Source: an uncultured Prevotellaceae bacterium (GTDB lineage: Bacteria > Bacteroidota > Bacteroidia > Bacteroidales > Bacteroidaceae). From it: DNA of 64,000 nucleotides. The notes below the pieces were generated by a model, which made no database searches, was not told the origin of the DNA, and worked only from the letters and a program-made list of their open reading frames with translations. This document shows positions 1,606 to 50,302 of this stretch, piece after piece. The stretch covers positions 1 to 64,000 of the forward strand of contig CACWMK010000003.1 of assembly GCA_902761905.1 (NCBI GenBank), written 5' to 3'. The position numbers were made by a program, and so were the translations under genes. The first letter of the stretch is position 1, and every line of letters begins with the position of its first letter.

Positions 1606-3978
1606 ATGGAGAAAATAACACTTGCTAACAGATTGAGCATACGTATTATGGCTGTAGTGATGGTGATGACTGTCATCATCATGGCTGTAGTTTACGTGAT
1701 AACCAGAGACTCGATGGCAAGGGAGGCAGAAACGCGATATGAGAGCGTGTTACAGAACGAAAACGAGAAGACACGTGGTGTGCTGTCGGATGTGTATGTG
1801 GCTGCAATAAACAATGTGAACGTGATAGAACGCGACATAAACGACCCCGACAAACTGCAGGCACACCTGGAGCGGATGGTGAGTCTGAACATGTATATGA
1901 GCAGTGCACGCCTGATATTTGAACCCGACTTCTACCCGCAGCTGGGGCACAGCTATGAGATATACGCATGGCGCGACAGCGCTGATGTGATAAAAGGGCG
2001 ACAGATGAACGAGAAACATCCTGATTTCCTGGTGCACGCATGGTATAAGGATGCTTTCGAGAACGATATAGATGACTGGACACCGCCTTACTTCGACCGT
2101 GCGTCGTCGCTTCAGCTTACTACCACCTATCTGGTGCACATACACGACCATAAGGGTCGCAAAGTGGGTATGCTGGGAGCCGACGTTAGTCTGGAGTGGT
2201 TGCGCGAACGCCACAGACGTGAGGATGCCGCCATACACGACAAGTACGAACAGAACTTTGCAAAACAGTCGTACAGTTTTATCATCGACCACGACGGCAC
2301 GTACCTGATAAATCCTCTGGAGGAAAGGGTGCTGAAGGAGAAATTCCAGAACGTCACGGCTGAGTCGCCGAGCACCAAAGATGATGAGCTGGCGCAGAAG
2401 ATGATGAACGGCGAGAGCGGTGTGTGCCGACTGCCTGACGACGGACTGGACTGCTGGGTGTTCTACTCGTACGTGAAATTTGCCGACTGGACAGTGGCTA
2501 TAGTTGTGCCCGAGGATATAATATATCATAAGGGTAACGTGCTGGCCAACATCATACTGGCAGTGCTGTTTCTGGGACTGGTGCTGATATATCTGCTGAG
2601 CCACCACTATATTACTAAAGGTCTGAGACCGCTTACACCGTTTGTTAAGATAGCCCGACAGATAGCGCAAGGAAACTTTGATATCGAACTGCCTGAGGTG
2701 AAGAGCCGCGAGGTGAGCGCACTGCGCGAGGCTTTCGGCGATATGCAGCAATCGCTTAACAGATATATATATGAGTTGAGGGAAACTGCAGCCTCGAATG
2801 CGGCGATGGAGCAGGAACTGAAGATTGCAAGCGATATACAGCAGCGCATGCTGCCCAAGGTGTATCCTCCATTCCCCGAACGTAAAGACATCGACATATT
2901 CGGCGAGGTGGTGACGGCCAAGCAGGTGGGTGGCGACCTGTTCGACTTCTTTATACGCGACGAGAAACTGTACTTCAGTATTGGCGATGTGGCTGGTAAG
3001 GGTGTGCCTGCGGCTCTGGTGATGGCAGTGGCACGATCGATGTTCCGCAGTGCATCGATGACTCATACATCGCCAAAGCTGATAGTTGAATCGATAAACC
3101 ATTCGGTGTGTCAGAGTAACGACTCGTTTATGTTTGTAACCCTGTTTATGGGTGTACTCGACCTGGCTACGGGCCGACTGCTGTACTGCAATGCCGGACA
3201 TGAGCCCCCTGTGCTGGTGGGTGGTGCTCACACCCGATTCCTGAACTGCGACAATAACATACCGCTGGGACTGCGTGATAACTGGGAATATTCCGAACAG
3301 CGATCGCTGATAGATAAGGGCACCACGCTATTCCTGTATACCGACGGATATACCGAGGCCGAGACAGTAGACCACGAACAGTTTGGTAGTGAGCGCATGT
3401 GTGCGGAGGCTCTGCGACTGAGTGCCTTGCATCACGACTCGCGTACGTTTGTGCAAGAGATACGCAAGGCCGAGCGCACGTTTGTAAACTACATACCTCA
3501 GGGCGACGATATATCGCTGCTGGCCATCAAATACAAGGGTGGACATGACAAGCACCTGTATCGTAGAGGAATATCACTGGTTAACGATGTGCAGGAGGTA
3601 CCGGCACTGGCTATATTCGTGGGCAGTATCTGCGAAGACATGCGATTCGACGAACTGACCACTGCAGGAGTTAACCTGGCTATAGAAGAGGCTGTGGTAA
3701 ACGTGATGAATTATGCATATCCGGAAGGCTCTCGCCATAACATACTGCTGGAGGTGGTGGCCGACAAGGAGAAGATAAAATTCGAACTTTCAGACGATGG
3801 ACGCCCATTCGACCCGACTACGGTATCGGAGGTGGATGTTACACTGCCGGCCAACCAGCGCCCGATAGGTGGACTGGGAGTACACTTGATACGCCACTAT
3901 ATGGACAGTGTGAGCTATGAGCGCAAGGATGGGCAGAATGTGCTCACGATGGTGAAATATTTGAAGGGTAAAGAATAA
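1606..3978 (+). CDS. Membrane SpoIIE-type phosphatase fused to RsbW-like serine kinase
   Basis: A 790-residue sensor for a partner-switching pathway. Order: membrane segment 13-33, large extracytoplasmic sensor (about 35-310, Cache-like), second membrane segment 312-334, HAMP linker (about 335-388), coiled linker, PP2C/SpoIIE phosphatase (about 425-645), and a C-terminal GHKL ATPase (about 665-788). Metal-binding phosphatase motifs are seen: VGGDL near 441-445, TDGYTEAE near 578-585 and GDD at 633-635. The ATPase keeps its N-box (EE at 694-695, N699), G1 (DDGRPF, 730-735) and G2 (GGLG, 755-758), so it should bind ATP. In the family the kinase phosphorylates a STAS-domain partner on serine and the phosphatase reverses this. 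Having both on one chain next to a STAS gene (3991) fits a self-contained switch. The signal sensed and final target are unknown. Confidence 0.9.
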   Translation: MEKITLANRLSIRIMAVVMVMTVIIMAVVYVITRDSMAREAETRYESVLQNENEKTRGVLSDVYVAAINNVNVIERDINDPDKLQAHLERMVSLNMYMSSARLIFEPDFYPQLGHSYEIYAWRDSADVIKGRQMNEKHPDFLVHAWYKDAFENDIDDWTPPYFDRASSLQLTTTYLVHIHDHKGRKVGMLGADVSLEWLRERHRREDAAIHDKYEQNFAKQSYSFIIDHDGTYLINPLEERVLKEKFQNVTAESPSTKDDELAQKMMNGESGVCRLPDDGLDCWVFYSYVKFADWTVAIVVPEDIIYHKGNVLANIILAVLFLGLVLIYLLSHHYITKGLRPLTPFVKIARQIAQGNFDIELPEVKSREVSALREAFGDMQQSLNRYIYELRETAASNAAMEQELKIASDIQQRMLPKVYPPFPERKDIDIFGEVVTAKQVGGDLFDFFIRDEKLYFSIGDVAGKGVPAALVMAVARSMFRSASMTHTSPKLIVESINHSVCQSNDSFMFVTLFMGVLDLATGRLLYCNAGHEPPVLVGGAHTRFLNCDNNIPLGLRDNWEYSEQRSLIDKGTTLFLYTDGYTEAETVDHEQFGSERMCAEALRLSALHHDSRTFVQEIRKAERTFVNYIPQGDDISLLAIKYKGGHDKHLYRRGISLVNDVQEVPALAIFVGSICEDMRFDELTTAGVNLAIEEAVVNVMNYAYPEGSRHNILLEVVADKEKIKFELSDDGRPFDPTTVSEVDVTLPANQRPIGGLGVHLIRHYMDSVSYERKDGQNVLTMVKYLKGKE

Positions 3979-3990
3979 AAAGATATAATT

Positions 3991-4296
3991 ATGGAAGCAA
4001 CAATCAGAAAGGAAGACAACAAGTGTGTGACACTGATACTTGACGGACGTCTTGACACATCGGTGACACCAAAGACTGAGAAAGAGGTTGAGCCACTCTA
4101 CGACTTCGTGGGCTACGAGATCGTGATAGACTGTACGCGTCTGGACTACATATCGAGTAGCGGACTGCGACTGCTGATGGCAATAAACCAGCGCTGCAGT
4201 GCCAATAAGTGCGAGCTATATATCAAGGGACTGCAGGCCAAGGTGTACGACGTGTTCCAGACTACCGGCTTTGTACACTTGTTTAAGTTCAAGTAA
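3991..4296 (+). CDS. STAS-domain anti-anti-sigma-like protein
   Basis: A 101-residue single STAS domain related to SpoIIAA/RsbV. The conserved loop that carries the regulatory serine is present (LDYISSSGLRLLM, residues 51-63, Ser55-57 before Gly58). In known systems phosphorylation at this site by an RsbW-type kinase releases the partner, and a SpoIIE-type phosphatase resets it. The gene starts 12 bases after the 790-residue phosphatase/kinase, so the two are cotranscribed and very likely interact. No sigma factor or separate anti-sigma gene is found nearby, so the output may not be a sigma factor. Its last eight bases overlap the convergent gene at 4289. Assignment to STAS is secure; the partner is inferred. 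Confidence 0.9.
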   Translation: MEATIRKEDNKCVTLILDGRLDTSVTPKTEKEVEPLYDFVGYEIVIDCTRLDYISSSGLRLLMAINQRCSANKCELYIKGLQAKVYDVFQTTGFVHLFKFK

Positions 4297-5197
4297 GATC
4301 AATGTCCTTGATACACTGTGAAACGAAGTAGTTTGCTATTTCGCCGTCGACATTGTATAATGGCTGAATGCGGTTAGAAACCTTGTTTGTGCCTATGCTC
4401 TGCAGCACTTCGTTCTGTTCGGTAAGATTGCCGTTCTTGTCGTAGAATGCGATGGCTACAAACGGATTGTTGAACATAGTCTTGTATTTGCATATTATTT
4501 CTTCTTTCAGCTTGTTGTCGTCGGGCTGGTAGTATTCTCCTATCTGGCCTGCTTTGGATATGATGACGTTGAGCGTGGCTGAATGGTGGTCGGCACGGAT
4601 GGTGCGGATTTTCACCAGATAGCAAACCACACCAAGTATGGCTGCCAGTATAAGCGATATGATGCCTGTCCACAGAGGTACCTGCGATGGATGCAGCTCA
4701 TGGCGCTCGGGGTGCATCCAAATATTGTAAATGGAGTGTATGTCGCCACGGAGTTTCAGTCGCATAAACTGGTCGTCGAACTGCTCCATCAGTTGGCGGT
4801 CCTTGCCCACCAGATAAACCTCGACGATAGAGTCGGGGCGAATACGCTTATAGTTTACCACCTCTTCGCTGAAGTAGTACTTACTCTTGTCGTAATCTCT
4901 GATATCAGCGAATATCAGGTCGGCCTCGCCTTTCTCGAACGCCGGTTTGAGGTCGTCATCAGTCATGCTTGTGAAAGTGCATGGAACACCCATTTCGGTG
5001 AGTACGGCTCGGGCTATGTCAATATGACTACCCTCGGGCGAACCATAAGTACCCTTGAACTCATAGGGCTTGTCGGTACGACTGCACACTATGACCACGG
5101 GGTTACTCTTGTTGTATCGGTCGGTAAGTGCTTGACCCGACACTTGCAGTACTGTTGCCAGCAGTAGGATTGTGGCTGTGATGTATCGGTACTTCAT
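4289..5197 (-). CDS. Truncated solute-binding receptor with membrane anchor and PAS-like tail
   Basis: A 302-residue protein with a signal peptide (about 1-22), a family-3 solute-binding region (33-162), a membrane segment (174-196) and a ~105-residue cytoplasmic tail with a PAS-like stretch (VAIAFYDKNGNLTEQNE). The binding region has the N-terminal lobe pattern (SHIDIARAVL; GEADLIFAD; YYFSEEV) and then goes straight to the closing segment (VEVYLVGKD...GDIHSIYNIW), so most of lobe 2 of a normal periplasmic binding protein appears to be missing. No kinase or other catalytic domain follows. It overlaps the upstream receptor gene by four bases (ATGA), so translation is coupled. It probably senses an amino-acid-like ligand or acts as an accessory subunit of its neighbour; the output is unknown. 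Confidence 0.75.
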   Translation of the reverse strand: MKYRYITATILLLATVLQVSGQALTDRYNKSNPVVIVCSRTDKPYEFKGTYGSPEGSHIDIARAVLTEMGVPCTFTSMTDDDLKPAFEKGEADLIFADIRDYDKSKYYFSEEVVNYKRIRPDSIVEVYLVGKDRQLMEQFDDQFMRLKLRGDIHSIYNIWMHPERHELHPSQVPLWTGIISLILAAILGVVCYLVKIRTIRADHHSATLNVIISKAGQIGEYYQPDDNKLKEEIICKYKTMFNNPFVAIAFYDKNGNLTEQNEVLQSIGTNKVSNRIQPLYNVDGEIANYFVSQCIKDIDLT

Positions 5198-6780
5198 ACG
5201 CAGAAAACGAATATGCCTAGCAACTCGCCGTCGTGATTCTTTACGGTACGCATCTTATACTCCACGCCGTTGATAGTGGCGTGGTAGCCGTGTACATCGC
5301 GCAGCGAAGCCAGATGATTGTGGAATATAGTGTTTAGGTCTGCATGGCTTTCTACCAGTGCATCGATATCGATATGTAGCAGTTCGCAGGCCTTCGTGTT
5401 AGCATTACGTATAATGCCTTCTTTGTCGAAGAACAGTATGCCCGAGTCGGTGCTGTAGAACATCGACCAGTATCGCAGCAGTCGTTCGCTGTCGGCTATC
5501 TTCTTTCGGCGTTGTTCGGTTATGTCCTTCTTTATTGCAACTATCTCAAGCGGATTGCCGTTGCGACTGCGACGCAGCACCGACAGGTCAACTGCAAATG
5601 AGTGCAGCTTATTGTCGTCATAGTCCATGTCAATTGCCTGTAGCTCTAAGGTTATCTTCTGTTCCTCGTGGCCGTGCGCGTCCTTATGCCTGCTGGTCAG
5701 TCGTTCCAGAGCTTCGCGCAGTTTCCAGAAGTCCTCGCGGCTGTATCGGTGCGAAAACACATCGAAAGAGTAGGTGCCAATCACATGTCCCTTCTCGTTG
5801 TAGTAATAAAATTTGTGGTTTTTTACCTTATATGACCAAATGCGCAGGAGGCCGATATTCTCTATCTGCGACAGTTGGGTTAACAATTGGGCCTGCTTGC
5901 TATGTATGCGCCTGTACTGCACTACAAACCATACCAGTAATAAGGCTGCGACCGCTAGCAACAATATGCCTGCGATGGCCAGTGTGGTATGCCACTGAGG
6001 ACTGCTAAGCGGAGTACGGTCAGGGTAGAACCATTTGCTCTCAAGTGCCTCCATCTTGTCATCGGTATATAGCTTCGAATAGGTCTTGTCCAGCAGATTC
6101 AACAATTGCTGGTTTCGCGACAGGAATTTATAGTCCATGTGTGGCATATTGACCGGAGTTACCATCAGATTGTTCAGACGCTTCTCGCGGATAATCCATC
6201 TCAGTGCTGCCGTGTTCCACACAACCTGGCCCTGCTGCGTGTCGTTTAGCTTAATCATCTCATTTATCATGTCCTTGCTCACGATGGCATTATCGGCCCA
6301 GCCATAGTCGTTCATCAAGTCCAGACATATACTATGTTCGCTTACCGTTACCTTGTTGTCGGGGTTGCTCAGGTCGTGGAATGTCTTGATGGCCACGTCC
6401 TTGCTCTTAGGTGTAGCCACGCTCTGGGTTAACAGTGCTATTGAGGTGTGACCATATTGTCCGTAGTCGCTGTTGTGCATGGTCGGCAGACCAAATGTAA
6501 TATCGCATTGTCCCGACTTCAGGTCGGCCAGCACCTCGCGGAGTGGCTTGAGCTTGATAACGTATGGAATCTTCAGTTCGTCGAGCAGCAACTTTATCAG
6601 CGCCACATTATATCCATCAGGTTCGCCCTTGTCATTAATATATGTATAAGGGTAGAAGTTGGTAGCGTCTTCGTATACCAGTGGTTTGTGATCAGTATAT
6701 ATATCGAGAGTGTCGCCTTGAGCATAAACGCTGCCAGCGAATAGCATGAAACATGGTATAATTAGCAGTAATCTGAACAT
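5194..6780 (-). CDS. Solute-binding-protein receptor with two PAS-like domains, no kinase
   Basis: A 528-residue membrane receptor starting MFRLLLIIPC (signal peptide ending near SVYAQ). The frame is open to 6846, but the promoter at 6812-6843 lies inside that extension, so the start at 6780 is chosen. Residues about 25-260 form a complete family-3 periplasmic binding domain, followed by a membrane segment (264-288) and two PAS-like regions (about 300-420 and 440-528). The second contains DSGILFFDKEGIIRNANTKA. In many Bacteroidales sensors this architecture continues into HisKA and HATPase domains; here the protein stops after PAS. It is the first gene of a two-gene operon with the truncated receptor at 4289-5197. 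Likely an amino-acid or related small-molecule sensor; how it signals is unknown. Confidence 0.8.
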   Translation of the reverse strand: MFRLLLIIPCFMLFAGSVYAQGDTLDIYTDHKPLVYEDATNFYPYTYINDKGEPDGYNVALIKLLLDELKIPYVIKLKPLREVLADLKSGQCDITFGLPTMHNSDYGQYGHTSIALLTQSVATPKSKDVAIKTFHDLSNPDNKVTVSEHSICLDLMNDYGWADNAIVSKDMINEMIKLNDTQQGQVVWNTAALRWIIREKRLNNLMVTPVNMPHMDYKFLSRNQQLLNLLDKTYSKLYTDDKMEALESKWFYPDRTPLSSPQWHTTLAIAGILLLAVAALLLVWFVVQYRRIHSKQAQLLTQLSQIENIGLLRIWSYKVKNHKFYYYNEKGHVIGTYSFDVFSHRYSREDFWKLREALERLTSRHKDAHGHEEQKITLELQAIDMDYDDNKLHSFAVDLSVLRRSRNGNPLEIVAIKKDITEQRRKKIADSERLLRYWSMFYSTDSGILFFDKEGIIRNANTKACELLHIDIDALVESHADLNTIFHNHLASLRDVHGYHATINGVEYKMRTVKNHDGELLGIFVFCV

Positions 6781-6811
6781 AACAATAGGTAATAGAAATA
6801 GTAAAACACTG

Positions 6812-6843
6812 CAAAGATATGAAAAAAAGTTATTAATAACAAA
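6812..6843 (-). promoter_or_regulatory. Promoter of receptor operon
   Basis: On the minus strand TTTG (6840-6843) and TATCTTTG (6812-6819) are 20 bases apart. It is back to back with the promoter of the TPR sensor kinase. Confidence 0.8.
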
Positions 6844-6863
6844 CAATTTATTAATTTTTTTTG

Positions 6864-6871
6864 TATCTTTG
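6864..6871 (+). promoter_or_regulatory. -7 box of TPR sensor kinase gene
   Basis: TATCTTTG on the plus strand after a T-rich run. No TTTG is present at the -33 position, where the sequence is instead CAAA, the -33 box of the divergent promoter. Confidence 0.6.
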
Positions 6872-6924
6872 CCCTCGAGATATTAACCTAAAATATGGAA
6901 TTATTGGTAAAAAAACAGACATAT

Positions 6925-8712
6925 ATGAAAAGAATTATTAACCTGATTCTATTAGCTTTTGTAAGCCTGAACAGTTTGGCAGTATCGTCTTATAATGAAA
7001 AAGACGTAAAGAGGTTGCGGGCAGAAATGTTACGACTAATCAGTACCGCTGAAAGAGAAAAATTTTACGAAGTATCCAATAAGCTGAAAGATGTTTGTCA
7101 GAAGATTGGCGATGAACGCACCTTCTACACCGCCTGGGGTAATCAGGCCGATTACGAGTCTACACGCCAGAACTATGCCAAAGCTGATGAGATAGCAGAA
7201 CAGATAGCTCGCTATGCCGCCGAGCAAAACAGTCACTGGGGCAACTATATAGCACTGCACACCCGCGCTATGACTGCACTGCAGAAGCAGGATTATAATG
7301 CTGCCGAGGAAGCATTCAAACGTGCTGTCGACTTCCGTCATAAGTATTTCCCCAAGGAGAGTGCGGGCGACGATCTGCAGGAACTCATGAAAATAGCCAA
7401 CCATCGCAAGGACCAGAAGGCCGGACTGATGTATGCACGCAAGATATTGGCCGAACCCGATGTGGCTCCGATACACAAGGGTAGGGCCCTGTTCCGACTG
7501 AGTCAGTTTGCGTTCAACAAGAAAAATATTGCACAGTATGACAGCATATACAACGTGCTGATGCAGCTGAAGGAATCTGACGGTATAGCTGCCATAGAGC
7601 CTGTGGTAGAGGTGAACTACGAAATACTGCACGGCAACTACCAGAAGGCAATGAAACTATGCGAGGATCTGTCGCCCGACAAGAAAGCTGAACGTATGGC
7701 AGTGATATATCATCTCATGGGCAACAACGACAAGGCCTACGAGATGATGGCCAAGTTTAAGAAGATAAACGACTCGATAGTACTGGTGTCGCACGGCAAT
7801 GTGGTGGCCAGCTGCTACGTGCAGATGAACAACGAGCGTTTGAAGCTGGAGCAGAAGATGCTGGAGGATGAAAACGCCCAACTTAAGAGCTGGCTGATAT
7901 ACATACTGTGTATTGTCTTAGTGATAATACTTGCGGTAGTGATTTGGATACACCATTTGCGTATAAAGAAACTTGAGAAGGAGAAAGCCCTGCTGGAGAG
8001 TGAGAAAAAGAGGGCCGAGAAGGCATTTGATATGAAAAATGAGTTTATCACCAATATCACCAACGAGCTACGTGCGCCACTCAATCCTATTGAGGGATTC
8101 TCGGATATCCTGGCTACACCAGACTATCAGCTGCAGACCGAAGAGCGTGAGGCACTCCGCGGTATGATAAAAGACAGCTCAAAACACATTACCAGACTGA
8201 TAGACGAATTGGCCGAAATTTCGTTCTACGAGAGCAAGAAGTCGCTGCCTATGAACTATACCATGTCGCCTAACCATCTGGCCCGACACATGGTGGATGC
8301 TATGCGTCCACACTGCAAGGAGGGTGTGCGAATGTTTTTCGAGAGCGACCTGCCCGACGATTATGCTGTGCAGACAAATCAGGAGGCAATGGAGGCTCTG
8401 CTTATACACTTGCTCGAGAATGCTGTGAAGTACACCGATAAGGGTGTGATAACATTAGCTGTTACCGAGTATGAGGACTGTGTGCGTACCAGTGTTACCG
8501 ATACTGGTCGCGGAATACCGCCTGAGCGCAGAGAGCATGTATTTGAAACATTCCGCGAACTGGGCGACAATCAGAAACTACAAGGACTAGGCTTGTCTAT
8601 CTGTCAAGCCATAGTAAAACTGCTAGGCGGTAAGATATGGCTAGACGAAAGCTATACTGATGGAACACGTTTCGTTTACGATGTCCCTATCCACAAGTCT
8701 GGCGAAGCATAA
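6925..8712 (+). CDS. TPR sensor histidine kinase-like protein lacking the phospho-acceptor histidine
   Basis: A 595-residue membrane protein. ATG at 6925 gives a proper signal peptide (MKRIINLILLAFVSL); an in-frame ATG at 6895 would add ten residues. Order: periplasmic TPR-like helices (about 25-310), membrane segment (about 323-345), coiled coil, HisKA-like region and GHKL ATPase. The ATPase looks intact: N-box LLENAVKYT, G1 DTGRGIPP, G2 GLGLSICQAIVKLLGG. The H-box reads NITNELRAPLN instead of the usual S-H-E-L/I-R-T/A-P-L-N: the codon at 8062-8064 is AAC, so the phosphorylated histidine is Asn (residue 380). It therefore probably cannot autophosphorylate in the usual way, and may be a scaffold, a kinase acting in trans or an ATP-dependent switch. 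It ends six bases from the convergent TPR phosphatase gene. Confidence 0.85.
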   Translation: MKRIINLILLAFVSLNSLAVSSYNEKDVKRLRAEMLRLISTAEREKFYEVSNKLKDVCQKIGDERTFYTAWGNQADYESTRQNYAKADEIAEQIARYAAEQNSHWGNYIALHTRAMTALQKQDYNAAEEAFKRAVDFRHKYFPKESAGDDLQELMKIANHRKDQKAGLMYARKILAEPDVAPIHKGRALFRLSQFAFNKKNIAQYDSIYNVLMQLKESDGIAAIEPVVEVNYEILHGNYQKAMKLCEDLSPDKKAERMAVIYHLMGNNDKAYEMMAKFKKINDSIVLVSHGNVVASCYVQMNNERLKLEQKMLEDENAQLKSWLIYILCIVLVIILAVVIWIHHLRIKKLEKEKALLESEKKRAEKAFDMKNEFITNITNELRAPLNPIEGFSDILATPDYQLQTEEREALRGMIKDSSKHITRLIDELAEISFYESKKSLPMNYTMSPNHLARHMVDAMRPHCKEGVRMFFESDLPDDYAVQTNQEAMEALLIHLLENAVKYTDKGVITLAVTEYEDCVRTSVTDTGRGIPPERREHVFETFRELGDNQKLQGLGLSICQAIVKLLGGKIWLDESYTDGTRFVYDVPIHKSGEA

Positions 8713-8718
8713 GAGCTT

Positions 8719-10779
8719 TTAATTTAAATGTATACAGAACATCGTGAGGTCGTCGTTTGGCTCGGCGCCGTCGCGATGTTTCTCTATCTCGGCTGTCAAG
8801 TTGGCGATAACCTGTTCTGATGTGTCGTATGATGTCTGGCGCAGGAGTTGCAGCATGCGGCTATCACCAAACTGCTCTTGTTGCTGGTTCTCTGCTTCAT
8901 TGAGTCCGTCGGTATAAAGGAAGAACGGACGCCCCTTGATGGTGTCGATTTCCTCGCCCTCGTACTGAATGTCCTTCCACAGACCGATAGGGGCATTAGG
9001 CTTCATCTCGAGGAACTCGCCGTGATACTCGCCACCGCCGATTACAGGCGCGTTATGACCTGCATTGCAGAAGTCGAGATGACCTGTCTTCAGGTCGAGC
9101 AATCCCAACCAGAAGGTTACGAACATGCCCTGCTGATTGTCTTCGGTCAGTGCAGCATTCATGTTGGTACATATTTCGGCTGGCATCATACCCTGAACTG
9201 ACAGGGTGCGGAACAAACGAGTGGCCTGAGCCATAAACAGTGAGGCAGGAACTCCCTTGCCCGACACGTCGCCAATGGCAAAGTAGAACTTGTCGCCCAG
9301 GAGCACATAGCCATACAGGTCGCCACCAACCTCCTTGGCTGGGGTCATCTTGGCAAACACATCAAGTCCCTCGCGATCAGGGAACTCATGGGGCACCATG
9401 CTCATCTGTATATCGCGGGCAATGCGCAGCTCACTCTCGATGCGCTCCTTGGCAGAAGTCGTTTCTTCTAGTTGATCGTAGGCCTCCTTAAGCTCCTCGT
9501 GGGCCACCTCAAGGCGCTTGGCAGCGCGATGGCGGAAGAAGATGAAAATGGCAAGGCCTATGATGACCAGAATGGCTACAATGCCACCGGTAATGGAGCG
9601 CTGGCGCGACAGCTTGTACTGCTGCTCGGCTATCTGCTGGTCCTTCTGCTGAGTGGCGTAGATTACGGTCAGCTCGGCTGCATTGTCCTGCAACTGATGG
9701 TGCCATACGCTATCTACCACGCCAGCCAGTTCCTGAGCCATCTTATATGCCTCGGCTTTTCGACCTGCCTTCTCATACACACGGAAGCTCTCTGCCAGAT
9801 TGCTAAGGTTCTCCATAGAGTAGTCCATGCCCATGGCCTTGTGCAACTGGTAAATGGGATCAAGCATATCGGCTGCGGCATCCCACTGGTTGGTCTTTTC
9901 GAGATATGACAGCTGCTCGATAAGGAACGCAGGGTTCTGGGCAAACGGGGTTTTCATAAAGTCTTCGTAAACTTTATGAGCCTCTGCTTCTCTACCATTA
10001 GATACATAACACATAGCCTTGCACAACTGTACCTTGGCTCGCAGCATAGGTTCTGCCGATGGCAACTGAGTCTTCTTGTTGCGATCGGCCATCATGTCGA
10101 GAAACTTCTCTGCTCGCTCTATCCAAGGCATCGAAAGGTCGGGGTAGGAATTGTAATAAGATGTGGCGATGTTTGCTATGAGTGTCCCCATCGTCTCGAG
10201 TGTAACATGGGTGGTATCGGTAGCTGCCAGATCCATAAGCACGTCATAGGCCTTCTGCATGCTAACTTTACCATCGTCCTTCTGCTTCAGTATAAGTTGG
10301 CAGTTGCCCAATACGAACTGTAGTGATGCCTCCCATATCTTATAATCAGGGTTGTTGTCCTTTTTGAGTTGGGCTGTGGCAGCTTGAGCCTGCTGTATGG
10401 CTTCGCCCATATTACCTCGCATCATGGTCACTGTACACAGATTATATTGAGCCTGATAATAACCTTTAGGCCAGATGCTGTGCAGCTCGGGAGTGATTGC
10501 CTTGCGGCCCTCAGACGATGCTGTAAGCATGTTGCCTATGCGAGCATTGAGCATGCCTCGAATCATGTTGATGACGCACTCTGGGTAATTGCCTGAAGAT
10601 TCGAGACTGTCTATATACTGAAAAGCCTCAGCAGGATTCTGATTAAGTAGTGATACCGACTTGGCCTGTACGGCTTGATACTCGTCGACGTTTGATTGAC
10701 TACTCTTGGTATTACTGTCTAAACAGCCTACCAGTACCAGCACCAGTGCCAGAATTGCTGCAATTTTAATAATCTTCAT
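8719..10779 (-). CDS. TPR lipoprotein with cytoplasmic SpoIIE-type phosphatase
   Basis: A 686-residue protein with a lipoprotein signal (LVLVGC, Cys19), helical TPR-like repeats (about 35-390), a membrane segment (396-414), a coiled-coil linker (AAKRLEVAHEELKEAYDQLE-like, 416-455) and a C-terminal PP2C/SpoIIE phosphatase (about 460-685). Phosphatase motifs: VGGDLYGY near 483, GKGVPASLFM, CNAGHNAPV, LYTDGLNEAEN near 620 and NDDLTMF near the end. Unlike the 1606 gene it has no kinase domain. It has its own promoter facing that of the ABC transporter operon. It most likely dephosphorylates a STAS partner, with the nearby one at 3991 as the obvious candidate. A lipid-modified N-terminus combined with a membrane segment is odd and the topology needs testing; the Cys could also be part of an uncleaved signal anchor. 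Confidence 0.88.
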   Translation of the reverse strand: MKIIKIAAILALVLVLVGCLDSNTKSSQSNVDEYQAVQAKSVSLLNQNPAEAFQYIDSLESSGNYPECVINMIRGMLNARIGNMLTASSEGRKAITPELHSIWPKGYYQAQYNLCTVTMMRGNMGEAIQQAQAATAQLKKDNNPDYKIWEASLQFVLGNCQLILKQKDDGKVSMQKAYDVLMDLAATDTTHVTLETMGTLIANIATSYYNSYPDLSMPWIERAEKFLDMMADRNKKTQLPSAEPMLRAKVQLCKAMCYVSNGREAEAHKVYEDFMKTPFAQNPAFLIEQLSYLEKTNQWDAAADMLDPIYQLHKAMGMDYSMENLSNLAESFRVYEKAGRKAEAYKMAQELAGVVDSVWHHQLQDNAAELTVIYATQQKDQQIAEQQYKLSRQRSITGGIVAILVIIGLAIFIFFRHRAAKRLEVAHEELKEAYDQLEETTSAKERIESELRIARDIQMSMVPHEFPDREGLDVFAKMTPAKEVGGDLYGYVLLGDKFYFAIGDVSGKGVPASLFMAQATRLFRTLSVQGMMPAEICTNMNAALTEDNQQGMFVTFWLGLLDLKTGHLDFCNAGHNAPVIGGGEYHGEFLEMKPNAPIGLWKDIQYEGEEIDTIKGRPFFLYTDGLNEAENQQQEQFGDSRMLQLLRQTSYDTSEQVIANLTAEIEKHRDGAEPNDDLTMFCIHLN

Positions 10780-10821
10780 TTCCTTTTATTTATGTTATTA
10801 ATAATTAATCTTAAACTTGTG

Positions 10822-10853
10822 CAAAGGTACAAAATATTTCTGAAATAAGCAAA
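10822..10853 (-). promoter_or_regulatory. Promoter of TPR lipoprotein phosphatase
   Basis: On the minus strand TTTG (10850-10853), 20 bases, TACCTTTG (10822-10829). Divergent from the ABC operon promoter 14 bases away. Confidence 0.85.
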
Positions 10854-10866
10854 ATATTGGTTATTA

Positions 10867-10898
10867 TTTGCTGGTTTTAAATAATTATTGTACCTTTG
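10867..10898 (+). promoter_or_regulatory. Promoter of ABC transporter operon
   Basis: TTTG (10867-10870), 20 bases, TACCTTTG (10891-10898). The start codon of the transporter is 41 bases downstream. Confidence 0.85.
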
Positions 10899-10939
10899 CC
10901 GAATCAATAACAAATAATAAATCTATAATATAATATGTA

Positions 10940-12412
10940 ATGAGAAACTCTTGGCAATTGATACTAACCGCACTGGTGATACTATTGACGGGTTGTGGCA
11001 AAAACGAGGATATTAAGACCTTGACGCTGAATAGCGAGGATGATATAAGCGGTCTGACTGTGGCGGTACAGACTGGCAGTATCTACGACTTTGAAATGTC
11101 GAAACGAAGTGATGTTAAGGTGGCACGCTACAACAGTGCTCCTGACGTGGTGGCTGCTGTAACTACAGGAAATGTAGATGTAATGAAGGACGATGAAACA
11201 TGTATGTCGCCCAGCGACCTGCGAAATCATCACATGCGTATAGCTATGCGTTGTGACGAATCATTCGACGTGGCCTATGCATTTCGCAAGGATGATGGTG
11301 CAACGGTAGAACAGTTTAATACATTTCTGGATAATATACGGGCTGAGGGAACTTATGACAAGATATATAGTAGATGGTTTGATACAGAAGTGCCCGACAC
11401 GGTGAATCTGCCTGCTATAGAAGAATATAGTAGCGGTGAACCGCTTCGTGTAGTTACACACTCGCTGTTGGCGCCACTGTGCTTCCGTAAAGGAGAACTA
11501 TGGACAGGATTCGAGATAGAACTGTTGAAACGGTTTGCTGCATACGCCAAGCGCCCCTTATATATAAAGTTGCTAGACGCTGCGAGTGGTGCTGCGGCAC
11601 TGCAAAGTGGACTGGCTGATGTGTGGAGTGGCTGCATTTTTATCACTGAAGAGCGTGCCGAGAAGGTGTTGTTTACTAAACCATACTATCAGTGTCATGC
11701 AGCTTACTTCGTGCTTGACAAAGGGGCGGCAGCAAACTCTAGTTTCTGGACTGGAATCAAGGATAGCTTCTATAGTAATCTAATAGAAGAGGATCGCTGG
11801 CAATTCCTGGTCGACGGCCTGTACGAGACAATGGTGATAGCAGTGCTATCGCTGTTGCTAGGCACGCTGTTGGCCGCCATCATCTGTTGGATGCGTATGA
11901 ACAAGCGGCGCTGGTTGCGCATGGTGGCTGCTACATATATTGATATTATGCGCGGTGTGCCGTTGCTGGTTGTAATGATGCTAATGTTCTATGTGGTACT
12001 TGCGGGATCGAGTCTCAGCCCCACCATCGTTGCTGTCATAAGCTTTGCTCTGGTGTTCGGTGCATACGTCAGCGAAATATTCCGCACGGCTATCCTGAGC
12101 ATCGGTCGTGGACAGACCGAGGCGGGTGTGGCATTGGGATTTACACCGTTGCAGACATTCATATATATTATATTGCCACAAGCAGCGCGAGCCGCAATGC
12201 CGGTGTATAAGGGCGAGGCTGTGTCGCTGTTTAAAAATACATCTATCGTGGGATATATCGCTATCCAGGACCTGACCAAGGCTAGCGACTTGATACGTAG
12301 TCGCACGTTTGATGCATTCTTCCCGCTCATCATCATCTCTATTATTTACTTTGTGCTGGCATGGCTGTTAGGCAAGATGCTGGATAAAACCGTTAAAACC
12401 CAACAATCATGA
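10940..12412 (+). CDS. Polar amino acid ABC transporter: fused binding protein and permease
   Basis: A 490-residue lipoprotein-like protein (LLTGC, Cys19) in which a substrate-binding region (about 36-250) is fused to a His/Glu/Gln-type permease (about 282-485). The permease EAA loop is clear ([12 protein letters not shown]). The binding region is in an unusual order: residues 36-147 look like lobe 2 plus the C-terminal end of a family-3 binding protein ([35 protein letters not shown]), and residues 157-250 look like lobe 1 ([29 protein letters not shown]). It may therefore be circularly permuted or two half-domains. It overlaps the ATPase gene by four bases (ATGA). Substrate is probably an amino acid such as glutamine, glutamate or arginine. 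Confidence 0.88.
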
Positions 12413-13479
12413 TTAGTATAAGACATCTGAGCAAGACATATATTACACGCGATGGCATGCCTCTGCAGGTACTGAAAGACGTGAACTGCGACATAGAGAA
12501 AGGCGAGGTGATAAGTATCATCGGTCCGTCGGGCACTGGTAAGAGTACTTTTCTGCGTGCACTGAATCTGCTTGACCCGCCTACTGGTGGCGAGATACTG
12601 GTGGACGGTGACAATATATTGCGTAAGGACTACCCGATAAATCTGCTGCGACAACGCATGGGTATGGTGTTCCAGAGTTTCAATCTTTTTGATCACCTTA
12701 CCATACTACAGAACGTGACGCTTGCACCTATCAAACTGCTAGGCAAGACAAAACAGGAAGCCGAGACCGAGGCAATGCAACTGCTGCGCAAGGTGGGAAT
12801 GGGTGAAAAGGCTGGAGTGTATCCATCGTCGCTAAGTGGAGGACAGAAGCAGCGTGTAGCTATTGCCAGATCGCTGGCCATGCATCCCGAGGTAATACTT
12901 TTTGACGAACCAACGAGTGCTCTTGACCCAACGATGGTGGGCGAGGTGCTGAGTGTAATACGCCAATTGGCCAAGGAAGGTATGACCATGCTGATAGTGA
13001 CACACGAGATGAAATTTGCACACGATGTGTCGACACGAGTATTCTTCATGATGGATGGTGTTATACACGAGGATGGTACACCACAACAGATTTTCGAGAA
13101 TCCTGTGCACAGTGCTACCAAGGCTTTTGTGAACCGTATACAGAAGTTGGTATATGAGGTGGATTCTGATGATTTCGACTTCCTTAAGATTAATACCGAA
13201 ATCAGACAGTTCTGTATAAAATACAATATAGCTGAAAAAACAGAAACTGCCAATGCGCTGATACAGGAGATGCTGTTTGAGCATCTGCCCCAAATACGCC
13301 CGATAACCGTAAGAATGAGTCACACCGAACTGTCGGGTGTGACAGCACTCGACTTTATGGTAGAAAACATCAACAGCTCGCCTCTGCCTGTGGGAGTAAG
13401 AGATACCTTGCGTCAGCGGTTCAAAGATGTGATTGAGGAATCCACCACCCGTGGCTTCAGGGTTAAGATATTGTTATAA
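12409..13479 (+). CDS. Amino acid ABC transporter ATPase with ~110-residue C-terminal extension
   Basis: A 356-residue ATPase of the GlnQ/HisP type. Residues 1-245 are a standard ATP-binding cassette: Walker [10 protein letters not shown] (39-47), signature LSGGQ (142-146), Walker B ILFDEPT (163-169) and switch His199. GlnQ proteins usually end near residue 245; this one continues for about 110 residues (248-356) with a mostly alpha/beta pattern that includes [25 protein letters not shown] and GFRVKILL. That pattern is reminiscent of an RsbW-like GHKL fold without its ATP-binding residues, but the resemblance is weak and is inference. It pairs with the fused binding protein/permease gene, with which it overlaps by four bases. 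No promoter of its own is visible. Confidence 0.9.
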
Positions 13480-47351: not shown

Positions 47352-48011
47352 ATGAAATCAGAAATCAAAGTATTCAAGAGTGAGATGTTCGGCCAGATCC
47401 GCACAATGATTAACGAGAAGGGAGAGACCTTCTTTGTGGCCAAAGACGTGACAGATGCGCTGGGATATAAGAATGCATCCGACACCATCGGCAAACATGT
47501 TGACGCAGAGGATAGAGATAACATCGCGATTTGCGATTCTATCGGTAGAGCCAGGAGAGCAATGATAATCAACGAGAGCGGACTCTATGCGCTGATACTC
47601 TCGTCGAAACTCGACAAGGCTCGCGAGTTTAAACACTGGGTGACCAGCGTAGTGTTGCCCGCCATACGTCGCACAGGGCGCTACGAACTGCTACCCGCCG
47701 AACTGAAGGAACTGGGCGACAAGGCCGACTACTGCGACCGAGTGCTACTGAGCACCGACTGCATGAGCACTGCCAAGGTGGCCAACGAACTGGGAATGTC
47801 GGGCTACAGCCTATACTGCTGGCTGATGTCGTTCGGAGTGATCTACAAGAAGGGCGACGACTACATGCTGTATGCCGACTACGCTCGCCAAGGTCTGGCC
47901 AAGACGCGCACCGACTATCGCCGAACACGACTAGGCACCGTGCGAACCACTCATCTGCCTGTGTGGACCGAGGCTGGTCGCAAGTTTATCCACGACATTA
48001 TGAGCCTGTGA
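47352..48011 (+). CDS. Phage antirepressor: Bro-N plus KilAC/ANT domains
   Basis: A 219-residue DNA-binding protein. Residues about 5-105 are a Bro-N domain (FKSEMFGQIRTMINEKGETFFVAKDVTDALGY-type start, here split; ESGLYALILSSKLDKAREFKHWV) and about 125-215 an antirepressor C-terminal (KilAC) domain (MSTAKVANELGMSGYSLYCWLMSFGVIYK; TEAGRKFIHDI). In phages these proteins counter repressors or control early genes. Sitting between a lysozyme and a primase gene it probably regulates the island. The stop codon overlaps the GTG start of the primase (GTGA). Confidence 0.92.
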   Translation: MKSEIKVFKSEMFGQIRTMINEKGETFFVAKDVTDALGYKNASDTIGKHVDAEDRDNIAICDSIGRARRAMIINESGLYALILSSKLDKAREFKHWVTSVVLPAIRRTGRYELLPAELKELGDKADYCDRVLLSTDCMSTAKVANELGMSGYSLYCWLMSFGVIYKKGDDYMLYADYARQGLAKTRTDYRRTRLGTVRTTHLPVWTEAGRKFIHDIMSL

Positions 48012-50302
48012 GCGCATACTGTGTTTACTGCAAAGACGGGGCAAAGCACATGCGCCCCGTCGGCAGTAGAGCGGAGTACATTAACCTGAGAAACGGCGGC
48101 GAGCAGCAGTATCTGATGCACCGCATACGCGACGGCGACGAGACCGCCAAGGGCCGACTGCTGCAGATGAACTACAGTTGCCTGCCGAACGACGACGGCA
48201 CGCTGAAAGGCAGCACCCGCATGAGTACCACCGTTGGGATGGACATCGACCATCTGTCGCCCGAGGAGATGCCCGCCGTGCGCGAGCGAATCCTGGCCAA
48301 GAAGGATGAACTGGGTCTGAAGATGATGGAGGAGAGCGCTCGCGGCCAGGGCTACCACCTGGTGTTCGCCCGCCGTCCAGAGCTCTCGCAAGAAGAAAAC
48401 CTGAAGTGGGCCAGCCAGTTGCTGGATGTCGCCTACGATGGCCAAGCAACCGATATCACTCGCGTGTTCTTCACCACTACCGAGGCTCAGCTGCTATACC
48501 TCGACGACGCGATCTTTGAAAACGATGAAGCCCCGATGTCAAAAGATGTCTCGACTACGCTCGACATGACAACAACCACATTGTCATCTCGACTAAGCGC
48601 AGCGCATGGAGAGATCTCTACAGCAAAATACTTCAAAGGCATCCCCTACTCTGCCATTATCGACGAGTACTGGCGGCGAACAGGCGGTGTACCAGCGGAG
48701 GGCGAGCGCAACAAGCGACTGCACCAGTTGGCTGCCAACCTGCGCTCTATCTGCGACGACAACGAGGAGTGGTTGCTGGCACTGATGCCCAGTCTGGGAC
48801 TGCCCGAAGCCGAGATGCGCTCTATCATCCACTCTGCCTGCAAAGAACCCACCAAGGGCTCGCGCATGATGGATCAGATAGTAGACGCCCTATCCGCTGC
48901 CGACATCGCCGACATCGACCCCGACGATCAAGAATGTTCAATGGTCAATGTTCAATGGTCAATAAAAAAGTTGCCCCAAGGCATCCGCGACAGCATCGAC
49001 GCCGTAGGCCCCACGCTGGCCATGCCTATCGTCACTGCCATCTGTCCTTGCATAGGTGCACTTGCCACGGGCGTACGACTTGACGTGCATGGCACGCGCC
49101 GCGGACTGAACCTGATATCGTATATAGCCGGCGACTTTGCCAGCGGCAAGGGATCGATAGACCCGGTGGTAGAGGCTTGGATGAGCGAGACGGCCGCTCT
49201 GGACGCCATGTATCTGATGCAGGAACAGGAGTATACTGCCAAGAAGAAGGCTGCCAAAAATCAGAAGACTCAGCCCGAAGAACCTAAGTTGCCTGTGCGC
49301 TATATCACGCTGAACACCACCGTGGCAAAGCTAGCCGAGCGACTGGCCAACGCCGAGGGTAAGCATGCCTTCTCGTTTACGCCCGAGGCCGACACCGTGG
49401 CGCAGAAGTGGCGATCGTCGATGAGCGACTTCTCGGTGTTGCTACGACAGAGCTACGACGGCTCGAAATACGACCGCGAGGCCAAGAGCATAGATGCCGT
49501 ATCGGTGCACATCAAGCAGCTGCTGTGGAACGTCACCATGTGTGGCACGCCCGATGCACTCTATCGTGTGGTCAACAACTACACCGACGGATTCCAAAGT
49601 CGTATAGCGCTAGCCCAGACGCCCGACAACACCTTTGCCCCGCTAGAGGACACGCCCTACGTGCTTACTAGCCGCCAGACCGAGCGCATACAGCAGATAG
49701 CCCACCTGCTACCGCTGATGCAGGGCGACGTGGTGCTGCCCAAGCTGGAGGCCCGCGGCCGCGAGTGGCTGGAGAAGGTGCGACTGGAGGCGATGAAGAA
49801 CGACGACCGGGTGAAGGCGCGCGAGCGATTCCGCACCTGTGTTACCACCCAGAGGATGGTGTGCTGTCTGATGCTGTGCCGCGTGTGCGAACAGCTGATA
49901 CAGAAGCACGGACTGACAGGTGCCGAGACACAGTTGAAGGCGCAACCATCGCTGTGGCGCGACATGCTGCTGAAGGCGCAGACACCAGCACTGCTAAGCA
50001 CTTACGACGTGATAGCCGACCAACTGCTATACAACGCTCTGTACTACTTCCGCGACCGCATAGAGAACGCCTTTGCCAGTCGCAACTACAAGGGGACCAG
50101 CGAGCGCAGGCGCATGGGCAAGAACGACACCATCTATGAGCGACTTGACCCGCAGTTCACCACCGAACAGGCCTTGCAGCAGTCGATAGCCATCAAGGGT
50201 GCATCGATCACCGTCAACAGCGTACATCAGATGCTGAAGAACTGGAAGCAGCAGGGACTGATCATCCAGACCGAAGCCACCCACTATCGCAAGGTGTCAT
50301 AG
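48008..50302 (+). CDS. VirE_N-DUF3987 primase/helicase-like protein
   Basis: A 764-residue protein. The GTG at 48008 overlapping the upstream stop (GTGA) is preferred; a GTG at 47963 is also open. Residues about 1-165 resemble the VirE_N (BT4734-like) domain (STTVGMDIDHLSPEEM; ARGQGYHLVFARRPEL; DITRVFFTTTEAQLLYLDD), probably a primase-type domain. About 205-300 begin KGIPYSAIIDEYW. The DUF3987 part (about 320-640) has a P-loop-like GDFASGKGS near 374-382 and is probably a helicase ATPase. Two linkers are built from intergenic repeats kept in frame: REP-like DNA at 48545-48618 (residues about 180-203) and a 14-base tandem repeat at 48933-48963. It probably primes or unwinds DNA of the element. 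Confidence 0.88.
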   Translation: MSAYCVYCKDGAKHMRPVGSRAEYINLRNGGEQQYLMHRIRDGDETAKGRLLQMNYSCLPNDDGTLKGSTRMSTTVGMDIDHLSPEEMPAVRERILAKKDELGLKMMEESARGQGYHLVFARRPELSQEENLKWASQLLDVAYDGQATDITRVFFTTTEAQLLYLDDAIFENDEAPMSKDVSTTLDMTTTTLSSRLSAAHGEISTAKYFKGIPYSAIIDEYWRRTGGVPAEGERNKRLHQLAANLRSICDDNEEWLLALMPSLGLPEAEMRSIIHSACKEPTKGSRMMDQIVDALSAADIADIDPDDQECSMVNVQWSIKKLPQGIRDSIDAVGPTLAMPIVTAICPCIGALATGVRLDVHGTRRGLNLISYIAGDFASGKGSIDPVVEAWMSETAALDAMYLMQEQEYTAKKKAAKNQKTQPEEPKLPVRYITLNTTVAKLAERLANAEGKHAFSFTPEADTVAQKWRSSMSDFSVLLRQSYDGSKYDREAKSIDAVSVHIKQLLWNVTMCGTPDALYRVVNNYTDGFQSRIALAQTPDNTFAPLEDTPYVLTSRQTERIQQIAHLLPLMQGDVVLPKLEARGREWLEKVRLEAMKNDDRVKARERFRTCVTTQRMVCCLMLCRVCEQLIQKHGLTGAETQLKAQPSLWRDMLLKAQTPALLSTYDVIADQLLYNALYYFRDRIENAFASRNYKGTSERRRMGKNDTIYERLDPQFTTEQALQQSIAIKGASITVNSVHQMLKNWKQQGLIIQTEATHYRKVS
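48545..48618. repeat. REP-like element, copy D, inside the primase coding region
   Basis: Left unit GATGTCTCGACTACGCTCGA with CATGAC, then a spacer, then right unit GTCATCTCGACTAAGCGCAG with CGCATGGAGAGATCTC. These are the same units as copies A, B and C. Here they are translated in frame as a Ser/Thr-rich linker. Confidence 0.9.
48933..48963. repeat. 14-base tandem repeat inside the primase coding region
   Basis: AATGTTCAATGGTC at 48933-48946 and again at 48947-48960, then AAT. It encodes part of CSMVNVQWSIKK. The unit looks like the AT-rich intergenic repeats elsewhere in the window. Confidence 0.85.

Follow-up and report, generated by a model that had tools for sequence, protein, structure and literature searches.

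Partner-switching systems of the RsbU/RsbV/RsbW and SpoIIE/SpoIIAA/SpoIIAB type combine a PP2C phosphatase, a STAS protein with a phospho-serine motif and a GHKL serine kinase whose ATP motifs are intact. All three parts are found in the locus described here, eight genes at positions 1606..13479 of a 64,000-nucleotide window (the whole stretch of DNA analysed) from contig CACWMK010000003.1 of an uncultured Prevotellaceae bacterium, in which a sensory switch lies close to an ABC importer whose ATPase carries an RsbW-like tail. In contrast to the two classical systems, phosphatase and kinase are fused here behind a dCache sensor, kinase-less receptors built on substrate-binding protein (SBP) domains and a histidine-less kinase-like protein are attached, and no SigB/F/G-type sigma factor exceeds the family cut-off in 28 genomes that bear the tail. 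A cognate sigma factor defines the sigma-controlling branch of partner switching, not all partner switches. The locus is of a known kind, partner switching, and what is new is a sigma-less form that has histidine-free remnants of two-component systems and whose ABC importer bears an RsbW-like domain.

The SiaABC(D) biofilm pathway, which comprises a HAMP-SpoIIE phosphatase and a STAS protein and is free of a sigma factor, shares these features with the locus. SiaA is also the best NCBIfam match of gene 1, yet far under the SiaA cut-off (68.1 against 700 bits), and, unlike in SiaABC(D), no diguanylate cyclase (GGDEF) domain was found by Pfam among the eight proteins. DivL, a histidine-kinase homologue with Tyr in place of His at the phospho-acceptor position, has the same HisKA/HATPase_c architecture with a replaced phospho-acceptor as gene 5, which differs from it by Asn or Asp instead of Tyr, by a TPR sensor and by the surrounding partner-switching cassette. 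The importer has SBP_bac_3, a HEQRo_perm_3TM permease, a GlnQ-like ATPase and an SBP-permease fusion in common with GlnPQ/PAAT importers; here, however, the SBP is circularly permuted, the ATPase has a 110-residue tail, and relatives carry permease, SBP and ATPase fused in one protein of ~910 amino acids (aa). Treponema MglB-2, reportedly itself circularly permuted, is a sugar-binding protein, whereas the domain here belongs to the SBP_bac_3 family. The MglB-2 paper announces a "divergent topology" in its title and uses the words "circularly permuted" (PMC4990184).

MlaFEDB offers a known case of a STAS protein that acts on an ABC ATPase: MlaB binds the ATPase MlaF, a phosphomimetic at the equivalent residue weakens binding, and the authors leave phospho-regulation of the STAS subunit open (PMC7367683). 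In contrast to MlaFEDB, kinase and phosphatase genes are linked to the importer in some lineages here, the importer is of the GlnPQ type, and its ATPase has an RsbW-like tail. Post-translational control of ABC importers is poorly understood, and operons that hold SpoIIE, STAS and RsbW together with an importer tailed by a presumably dead RsbW make the question left open for MlaFB directly testable. Should the reading put forward below be true, nutrient uptake would be controlled post-translationally with no need for a sigma factor, and the partner-switch genes of Bacteroidota, found here without a SigB/F/G-type sigma, would gain a candidate output. The cassette, in which receptors and a kinase-like protein without histidine phosphotransfer have been kept with a serine switch, is a possible record of one chemistry replacing another. 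Queries of the open-access PMC literature, several of them narrow, returned no partner switching of ABC importers, no RsbW-like tail on an ABC ATPase and no permuted SBP_bac_3, which does not establish their absence from print.

The ATPase tail and its importer

The importer (module B) is encoded on the forward strand by gene 7 (10940..12412), a circularly permuted SBP_bac_3 domain fused to a GlnP-type permease (TIGR01726, 79.1 bits with a cut-off of 42.2), and gene 8 (12409..13479), a GlnQ-type ABC ATPase (aa 1-245) with a C-terminal tail; both were assigned with Pfam and NCBIfam, and gene 8 matches the GlnQ model at 2.1e-85, yet below the equivalog cut-off. The tail (aa 246-356; 13144..13476, + strand) is a member of a degenerate RsbW/HATPase_c_2-like family without ATP-binding residues, and it is because of this likeness to RsbW that the tail is of interest. 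It is matched in 7/151 genomes of the family, 32/296 of the phylum and, at a threshold of 1e-3, 68/398 of the genus. Of the 68 genus matches, 54 lie below 1e-9; among the 14 weaker ones is at least one genuine RsbW kinase (G315:C5), picked up by the tail profile in the reverse direction.

When scanned singly, 23 of 59 tails are matched by Pfam HATPase_c_2 (best 9.7e-6, under the gathering score in the member shown), and a whole-genome HATPase_c_2 search recovers the tail of genome G463 at 7.2e-5. An early test of direct similarity between window-clade tails and three kinases gave only 14.8% probability. The alignment of 59 tails, from which locus L084 (a duplicate of L085) and the truncated L108 were left out, was compared with kinases profile to profile and gave a probability of 96.6% (E 4.8e-10) over 111 colinear columns, against 0.2-0.3% for the reversed controls. 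The ATP-binding Asn is kept in 2/59 tails and the G1 Asp in 0/59, and the ATP lid is shortened; the domain should therefore be catalytically dead. Tails of the window's clade match other tails at 1.1e-20, and those match kinases at 1.5e-11, so that the link to kinases runs only via other tails and homology is through intermediates. These comparisons show descent of the tail from an RsbW-like domain with a predicted loss of catalysis, for the family directly and for the window's own tail by way of such intermediates. No sequence relatives of the tail were found in the PDB.

The importer's binding domain had been placed in the same family as those of the receptors by an earlier reading of the window made from sequence alone (hereafter the sequence-only reading). 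The Pfam family, SBP_bac_3, is indeed the same, but the importer copy is circularly permuted and the receptors are in normal order: residues 31-147 of gene 7 correspond to positions 124-250 of TIGR01096 and residues 169-263 to positions 1-95 of SBP_bac_3, i.e. the two halves are swapped with respect to the canonical lobe order. Tandem duplication followed by trimming would explain how the permutation arose. Permuted SBP_bac_3 domains lie in the window at 10940-11764 and, as stand-alone proteins, at L083:3825-4604, L077:11784-12563, L073:9037-9816 and L086:6072-6854; overall they occur as separate proteins, as fusions, or in tandem series ahead of a permease (three plus the permease in L076 and L083). 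At L017:9992-14113 a single chain of 1373 aa holds a permease, three permuted SBP units, an ATPase and a tail.

The five-gene cassette

Coordinates and nearly all domains named in the sequence-only reading were recovered by gene prediction and by Pfam and NCBIfam scans, and the domain content is beyond chance: the E-values are decisive, and synteny of genes 1-5 is seen in further genomes. The extent of the unit is another matter, as all eight genes had been taken for a single system with a neighbourhood to be looked for in relatives. The predicted strands alternate (+ + - - + - + + for genes 1-8), so that the eight do not form a single operon. The unit conserved elsewhere is genes 1-5. The importers closest in gene 7 identity (L015, 77%; L016, 74%; L048, 55%) have none of genes 1-6 in their flanks as fetched, the cassette also occurs without the importer, and synteny of all eight genes was rejected.

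A close gene 5 was found in 16 genomes, that of the window included (64-69% identity in a search with the TPR region of gene 5, which matched 46/398 genus genomes at 1e-30). In 12 of these 16, equal to 12/398 genus genomes, the genes are ordered and oriented 1 >, 2 >, < 3, < 4, 5 >. Searches of 200 genus genomes matched gene 4 in 89/200 and gene 3 in 84/200. Within the cassettes gene 3 is recognisable in 11/12 (L147 has its C-terminal part only, and none was called in L192), L147 and L189 have genes 3 and 4 joined in a single protein, and split copies occur of gene 4 (L183) and of gene 1 (L185). As the flanking genes vary among several cassette genomes, genes 1-5 are the unit: these five genes (1606-8712) are a conserved cassette and very probably a module (A) of its own, with genes 7-8 as a separate module B and gene 6 as an extra.

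The two SpoIIE-type phosphatases of the sequence-only reading, one of them fused to an RsbW-like kinase, were borne out by Pfam (SpoIIE 5.2e-45 and 2.1e-45; HATPase_c_2 1.7e-24). The fusion is gene 1 (1606..3978, + strand), a dCache/PDC-HAMP-SpoIIE (PP2C) phosphatase joined to an RsbW-like HATPase_c_2 kinase and 75-76% identical to the orthologues in L145 and L146. Its PP2C motifs GGDL, GDVAGKG, YTDG and DD are intact in 12/12 gene-1 orthologues of the cassettes, and so are the kinase N box, DxG and GG(L/M)G (N, G1 and G2). A canonical amino-acid dCache motif was considered for gene 1 and rejected: in a by-eye comparison with residues given in PMC10104139, a His (HAWY) occupies the position of PctA Arg126, and no ligand is therefore claimed. 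Gene 2 (3991..4296, + strand) encodes the one STAS protein, again in line with the earlier reading (Pfam 6.1e-14; TIGR00377 over cut-off), with 75-78% identity to the L145 and L146 orthologues and a YISSSGLR motif in 11/11 cassette orthologues examined. Ser56 within this motif is the candidate phospho-serine, which we take to be equivalent to SpoIIAA Ser58 and RsbV Ser56.

Genes 3 and 4 had been read as two PAS-tailed receptors without a kinase. Both carry SBP_bac_3, and a kinase domain is lacking in the receptors of 12/12 cassettes; the PAS domain is detected in gene 4 (TIGR00229, 3.2e-6) but not in gene 3, where neither Pfam nor NCBIfam gives a match at 0.01 and PAS is a resemblance only. 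Gene 3 (4289..5197, - strand; Pfam) consists of a reduced SBP domain, a transmembrane (TM) segment and a short PAS-like tail. Its SBP domain has 126 residues spanning positions 3-130 of the Pfam profile, compared with 212 residues in gene 4, and seems to be without lobe 2; the reduced form is common to gene 3 orthologues. Gene 4 (5194..6846, - strand, start uncertain; Pfam, NCBIfam) is an SBP_bac_3-TM-PAS receptor. Its homologues elsewhere in the genus are mostly frames of 930-950 aa, which end in a kinase in the loci read (L148-L152).

Gene 5 (6895..8712, + strand; Pfam) is a TPR-TM-HisKA-like-HATPase_c protein, 70-73% identical to its L145 and L146 orthologues, and the altered H-box attributed to it proved correct: Asn stands in place of the phospho-acceptor His in 11/12 cassette orthologues and Asp in 1/12. 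Close relatives outside the cassette have Asp in 4/4 with the ATP site kept, in more distant ones the position is Lys or has no counterpart in the alignment, and His is found only in a remote homologue beside another importer (L111). By inspection, the ATP-binding N, G1 and G2 boxes are present in the 16 close orthologues, with G2 incomplete in L185. The missing kinase domain and phospho-acceptor suggest that genes 3-5 are most likely former two-component parts which would now serve a serine-phosphate switch.

Linkage to switch genes and the proposed mechanism

Tailed importers, defined by 70 or more residues beyond the ATPase domain, were surveyed at 61 loci; the second ABC protein of L016 and the tail-less L055 and L057 were excluded, and L056 has no ABC match. 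At least two of SpoIIE, STAS and RsbW lie within 10 kb at 14/61 loci, and all three at 10, counting the STAS of L075, which was missed by the picking of open reading frames (ORFs) and found in one separate scan. The flanks of the 61 loci hold 13 STAS genes against 1.67 expected and 12 SpoIIE genes against 1.46 (Poisson odds of 3e-8 and 5e-8, respectively), the expected densities being taken from 28 of the tail-bearing genomes, which were hand-chosen and include those with linked genes. Mapped on the ATPase tree, linkage changes state 8 times and was therefore gained or lost repeatedly. Outside the genus, 12/45 tailed loci lie beside SpoIIE/STAS/RsbW genes, most of them in one operon: in L076, L083-L085 and L089 a single strand carries a sensor phosphatase, binding protein(s) and permease(s), the tailed ATPase, STAS and the kinase, and in L076 and L083 the operon genes overlap or stand only a few bases apart. 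Within the genus, the two linked loci other than the window differ from it in arrangement: a fused importer stands directly upstream of gene 1 in L192 (genome G709) and 3.3-5.8 kb from a gene-1-like protein (3.3 kb) and STAS in L053 (genome G250).

An NMT1/THI5-type binding protein (Pfam) was observed directly upstream of the dCache-SpoIIE gene at L083:765-1823 and L053:4501-5448; like-sized ORFs occupy this position in L075, L076, L089, L100 and L104, and L120 has a look-alike. In L053 an HD_4 gene and two APH-type kinase genes lie between importer and phosphatase.

The absence of a sigma factor noted in the sequence-only reading holds for the eight proteins (Pfam), and the search for SigB/F/G-type factors, positive in 1/14 control genomes, gave 0/28 tail-bearing genomes over the family cut-off. 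A classical sigma output is therefore unlikely and was rejected as a candidate. A RelA_SpoT-domain gene (Pfam) directly follows STAS in L053 (572-1684) and L117 (6551-7648), and either a RelA/SpoT-type enzyme or an unrecognised regulator is a possible output. ORFs of similar appearance follow STAS by eye at L121:9211-10305 and L122:1-598.

We propose that gene 1, in which a dCache sensor outside the cell governs two opposed enzymes, the SpoIIE phosphatase and the RsbW kinase, would most likely set the phosphorylation of STAS according to ligand, a role inferred because the motifs of both enzymes are intact. Genes 3-5 would most likely act by protein contacts, either modulating the STAS/phosphatase pair or being bound by it; the lack of a kinase domain in the receptors, and a gene 5 product that has no acceptor His but has kept the ATP site, point to such a role. 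Free STAS would bind partners of the GHKL fold, the candidates being gene 5 and, where the two modules meet, the dead RsbW tail. In the operon lineages, unphosphorylated STAS would dock on this dead kinase tail and gate transport, and phosphorylation would release it. Taken as a whole, an adjacent sensory switch (module A), a tailed importer (module B) and STAS docking form the best explanation of the locus, with a probability of roughly 0.5. Docking of STAS on the ATPase tail is given even odds in the operon-bearing lineages; in the window itself, docking of gene 2 on the tail of gene 8 is plausible though on the unlikely side. The wider idea of a transporter-client partner switch is put forward tentatively, at a little under even odds: a dedicated kinase and phosphatase would set STAS, and STAS on the dead RsbW tail would open or shut the importer without a sigma factor, fed in the window by two-component parts stripped of histidine phosphotransfer. 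Given cassettes without an importer and tails in genomes without SpoIIE, the importer would be at most one client.

A number of observations weigh against this reading. The ten tails of the window's clade have no direct similarity to RsbW kinases (probability 1.2%), and the window's tail, being very diverged, may have lost its STAS surface. SpoIIE matches are absent in 4/28 tail-bearing genomes (G379, G492, G516 and G640), and G640 is also without HATPase_c_2 over cut-off. The Poisson odds given above are too small because the loci are related, L083-L085 being near copies. Within the genus, 3/36 tailed importers are near switch genes with the window included, against 0.77 STAS expected; with the window excluded two linked loci are left, for which the chance probability is 18%, and linkage within the genus is not clearly above chance. 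No switch-gene neighbours were seen in the fetched flanks, some of them short, of 47/61 loci of the first survey and 19/19 further ones. The importer adjoins the cassette in only 2/12 cassette genomes (the window and L192), and in 5/12 the genus tail search found no tailed importer.

The fuller wiring of the sequence-only reading makes the eight genes one switch, in which ligands of the receptors control the phosphorylation of STAS and the output acts on the adjacent importer. It draws on the adjacency of the genes in the window, on the neighbourhoods of L192 and L053, and on the tail being commoner in cassette genomes (a strong match in 7/12, against 47/386 other genomes; Fisher 2.7e-4). Among genomes with a close gene 5, however, the tail is found in 7/12 with the cassette and 1/4 without it, so that shared ancestry may explain the Fisher value; with gene 6 not conserved beside cassettes and five cassette genomes lacking the tailed importer, we consider this wiring unlikely as it stands. 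The sequence-only reading saw real domains and a link that other genomes made credible, but misjudged the unit; its wiring may serve as a good, testable hypothesis, as yet unproven. Information might also flow in reverse, with the importer as a co-sensor whose dead-kinase tail would sequester STAS or report to it by transport state. The operons of the f17 genomes, which unite transporter, STAS, kinase and phosphatase, would accommodate this, as would the rich sensing (the NMT1-type proteins of L083 and L053) and the lack of an evident effector gene. Yet the phosphatase has an extracellular sensor of its own, and operons without a downstream effector are compatible with both directions, which leaves reverse flow improbable.

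Somewhat better placed, though still unlikely, is the view that the tail serves dimerisation or stability of the ATPase and that its nearness to switch genes comes from shared amino-acid physiology. Retention of the tail in SpoIIE-less genomes and the unlinked majority of tailed loci agree with this, and MlaF dimerises via a C-terminal extension (PMC7367683). On the other hand, the tail is descended from precisely the domain to which STAS binds, and a STAS gene begins 2-47 bases after the ATPase gene in eight loci (L076, L083, L084, L085, L089, L102, L104 and L105). A comparably small chance goes to a target of module A outside the window, e.g. a (p)ppGpp synthetase or an unrecognised regulator: the RelA_SpoT-domain genes of L053 and L117 and the five cassettes without an importer favour it, whereas no RelA_SpoT-like gene adjoins the cassette in the window and no SigB/F/G-type sigma was seen over cut-off.

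Gene 6 and other features

Gene 6 (8719..10779, - strand; Pfam), a TPR-TM-SpoIIE phosphatase, lies outside the conserved cassette; SpoIIE matches number 15 in the window's genome, this gene among them. Of the other cassettes, only that of L191 has a similar TPR-SpoIIE neighbour (48% identity over 493 aa). The same genome holds a second partner-switching set at L113 (G000:C43, 7793-13319), composed of a TPR-SpoIIE protein, an HATPase_c protein, STAS and RsbW; it adjoins an ABC ATPase and a protein that is MlaE-like by eye, and the same set occurs in L116 without such a neighbour. An extra dCache-SpoIIE and STAS pair was seen at G280:C11 (L120, 1399-3699), 8 kb from a dCache-SpoIIE-RsbW and STAS pair on the same contig.

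Scans of the window for tRNA genes and Rfam families found none. At 47352-50302 of the window, two ORFs resemble, by eye only, BRO-type and VirE/DUF3987-type mobile-element proteins.

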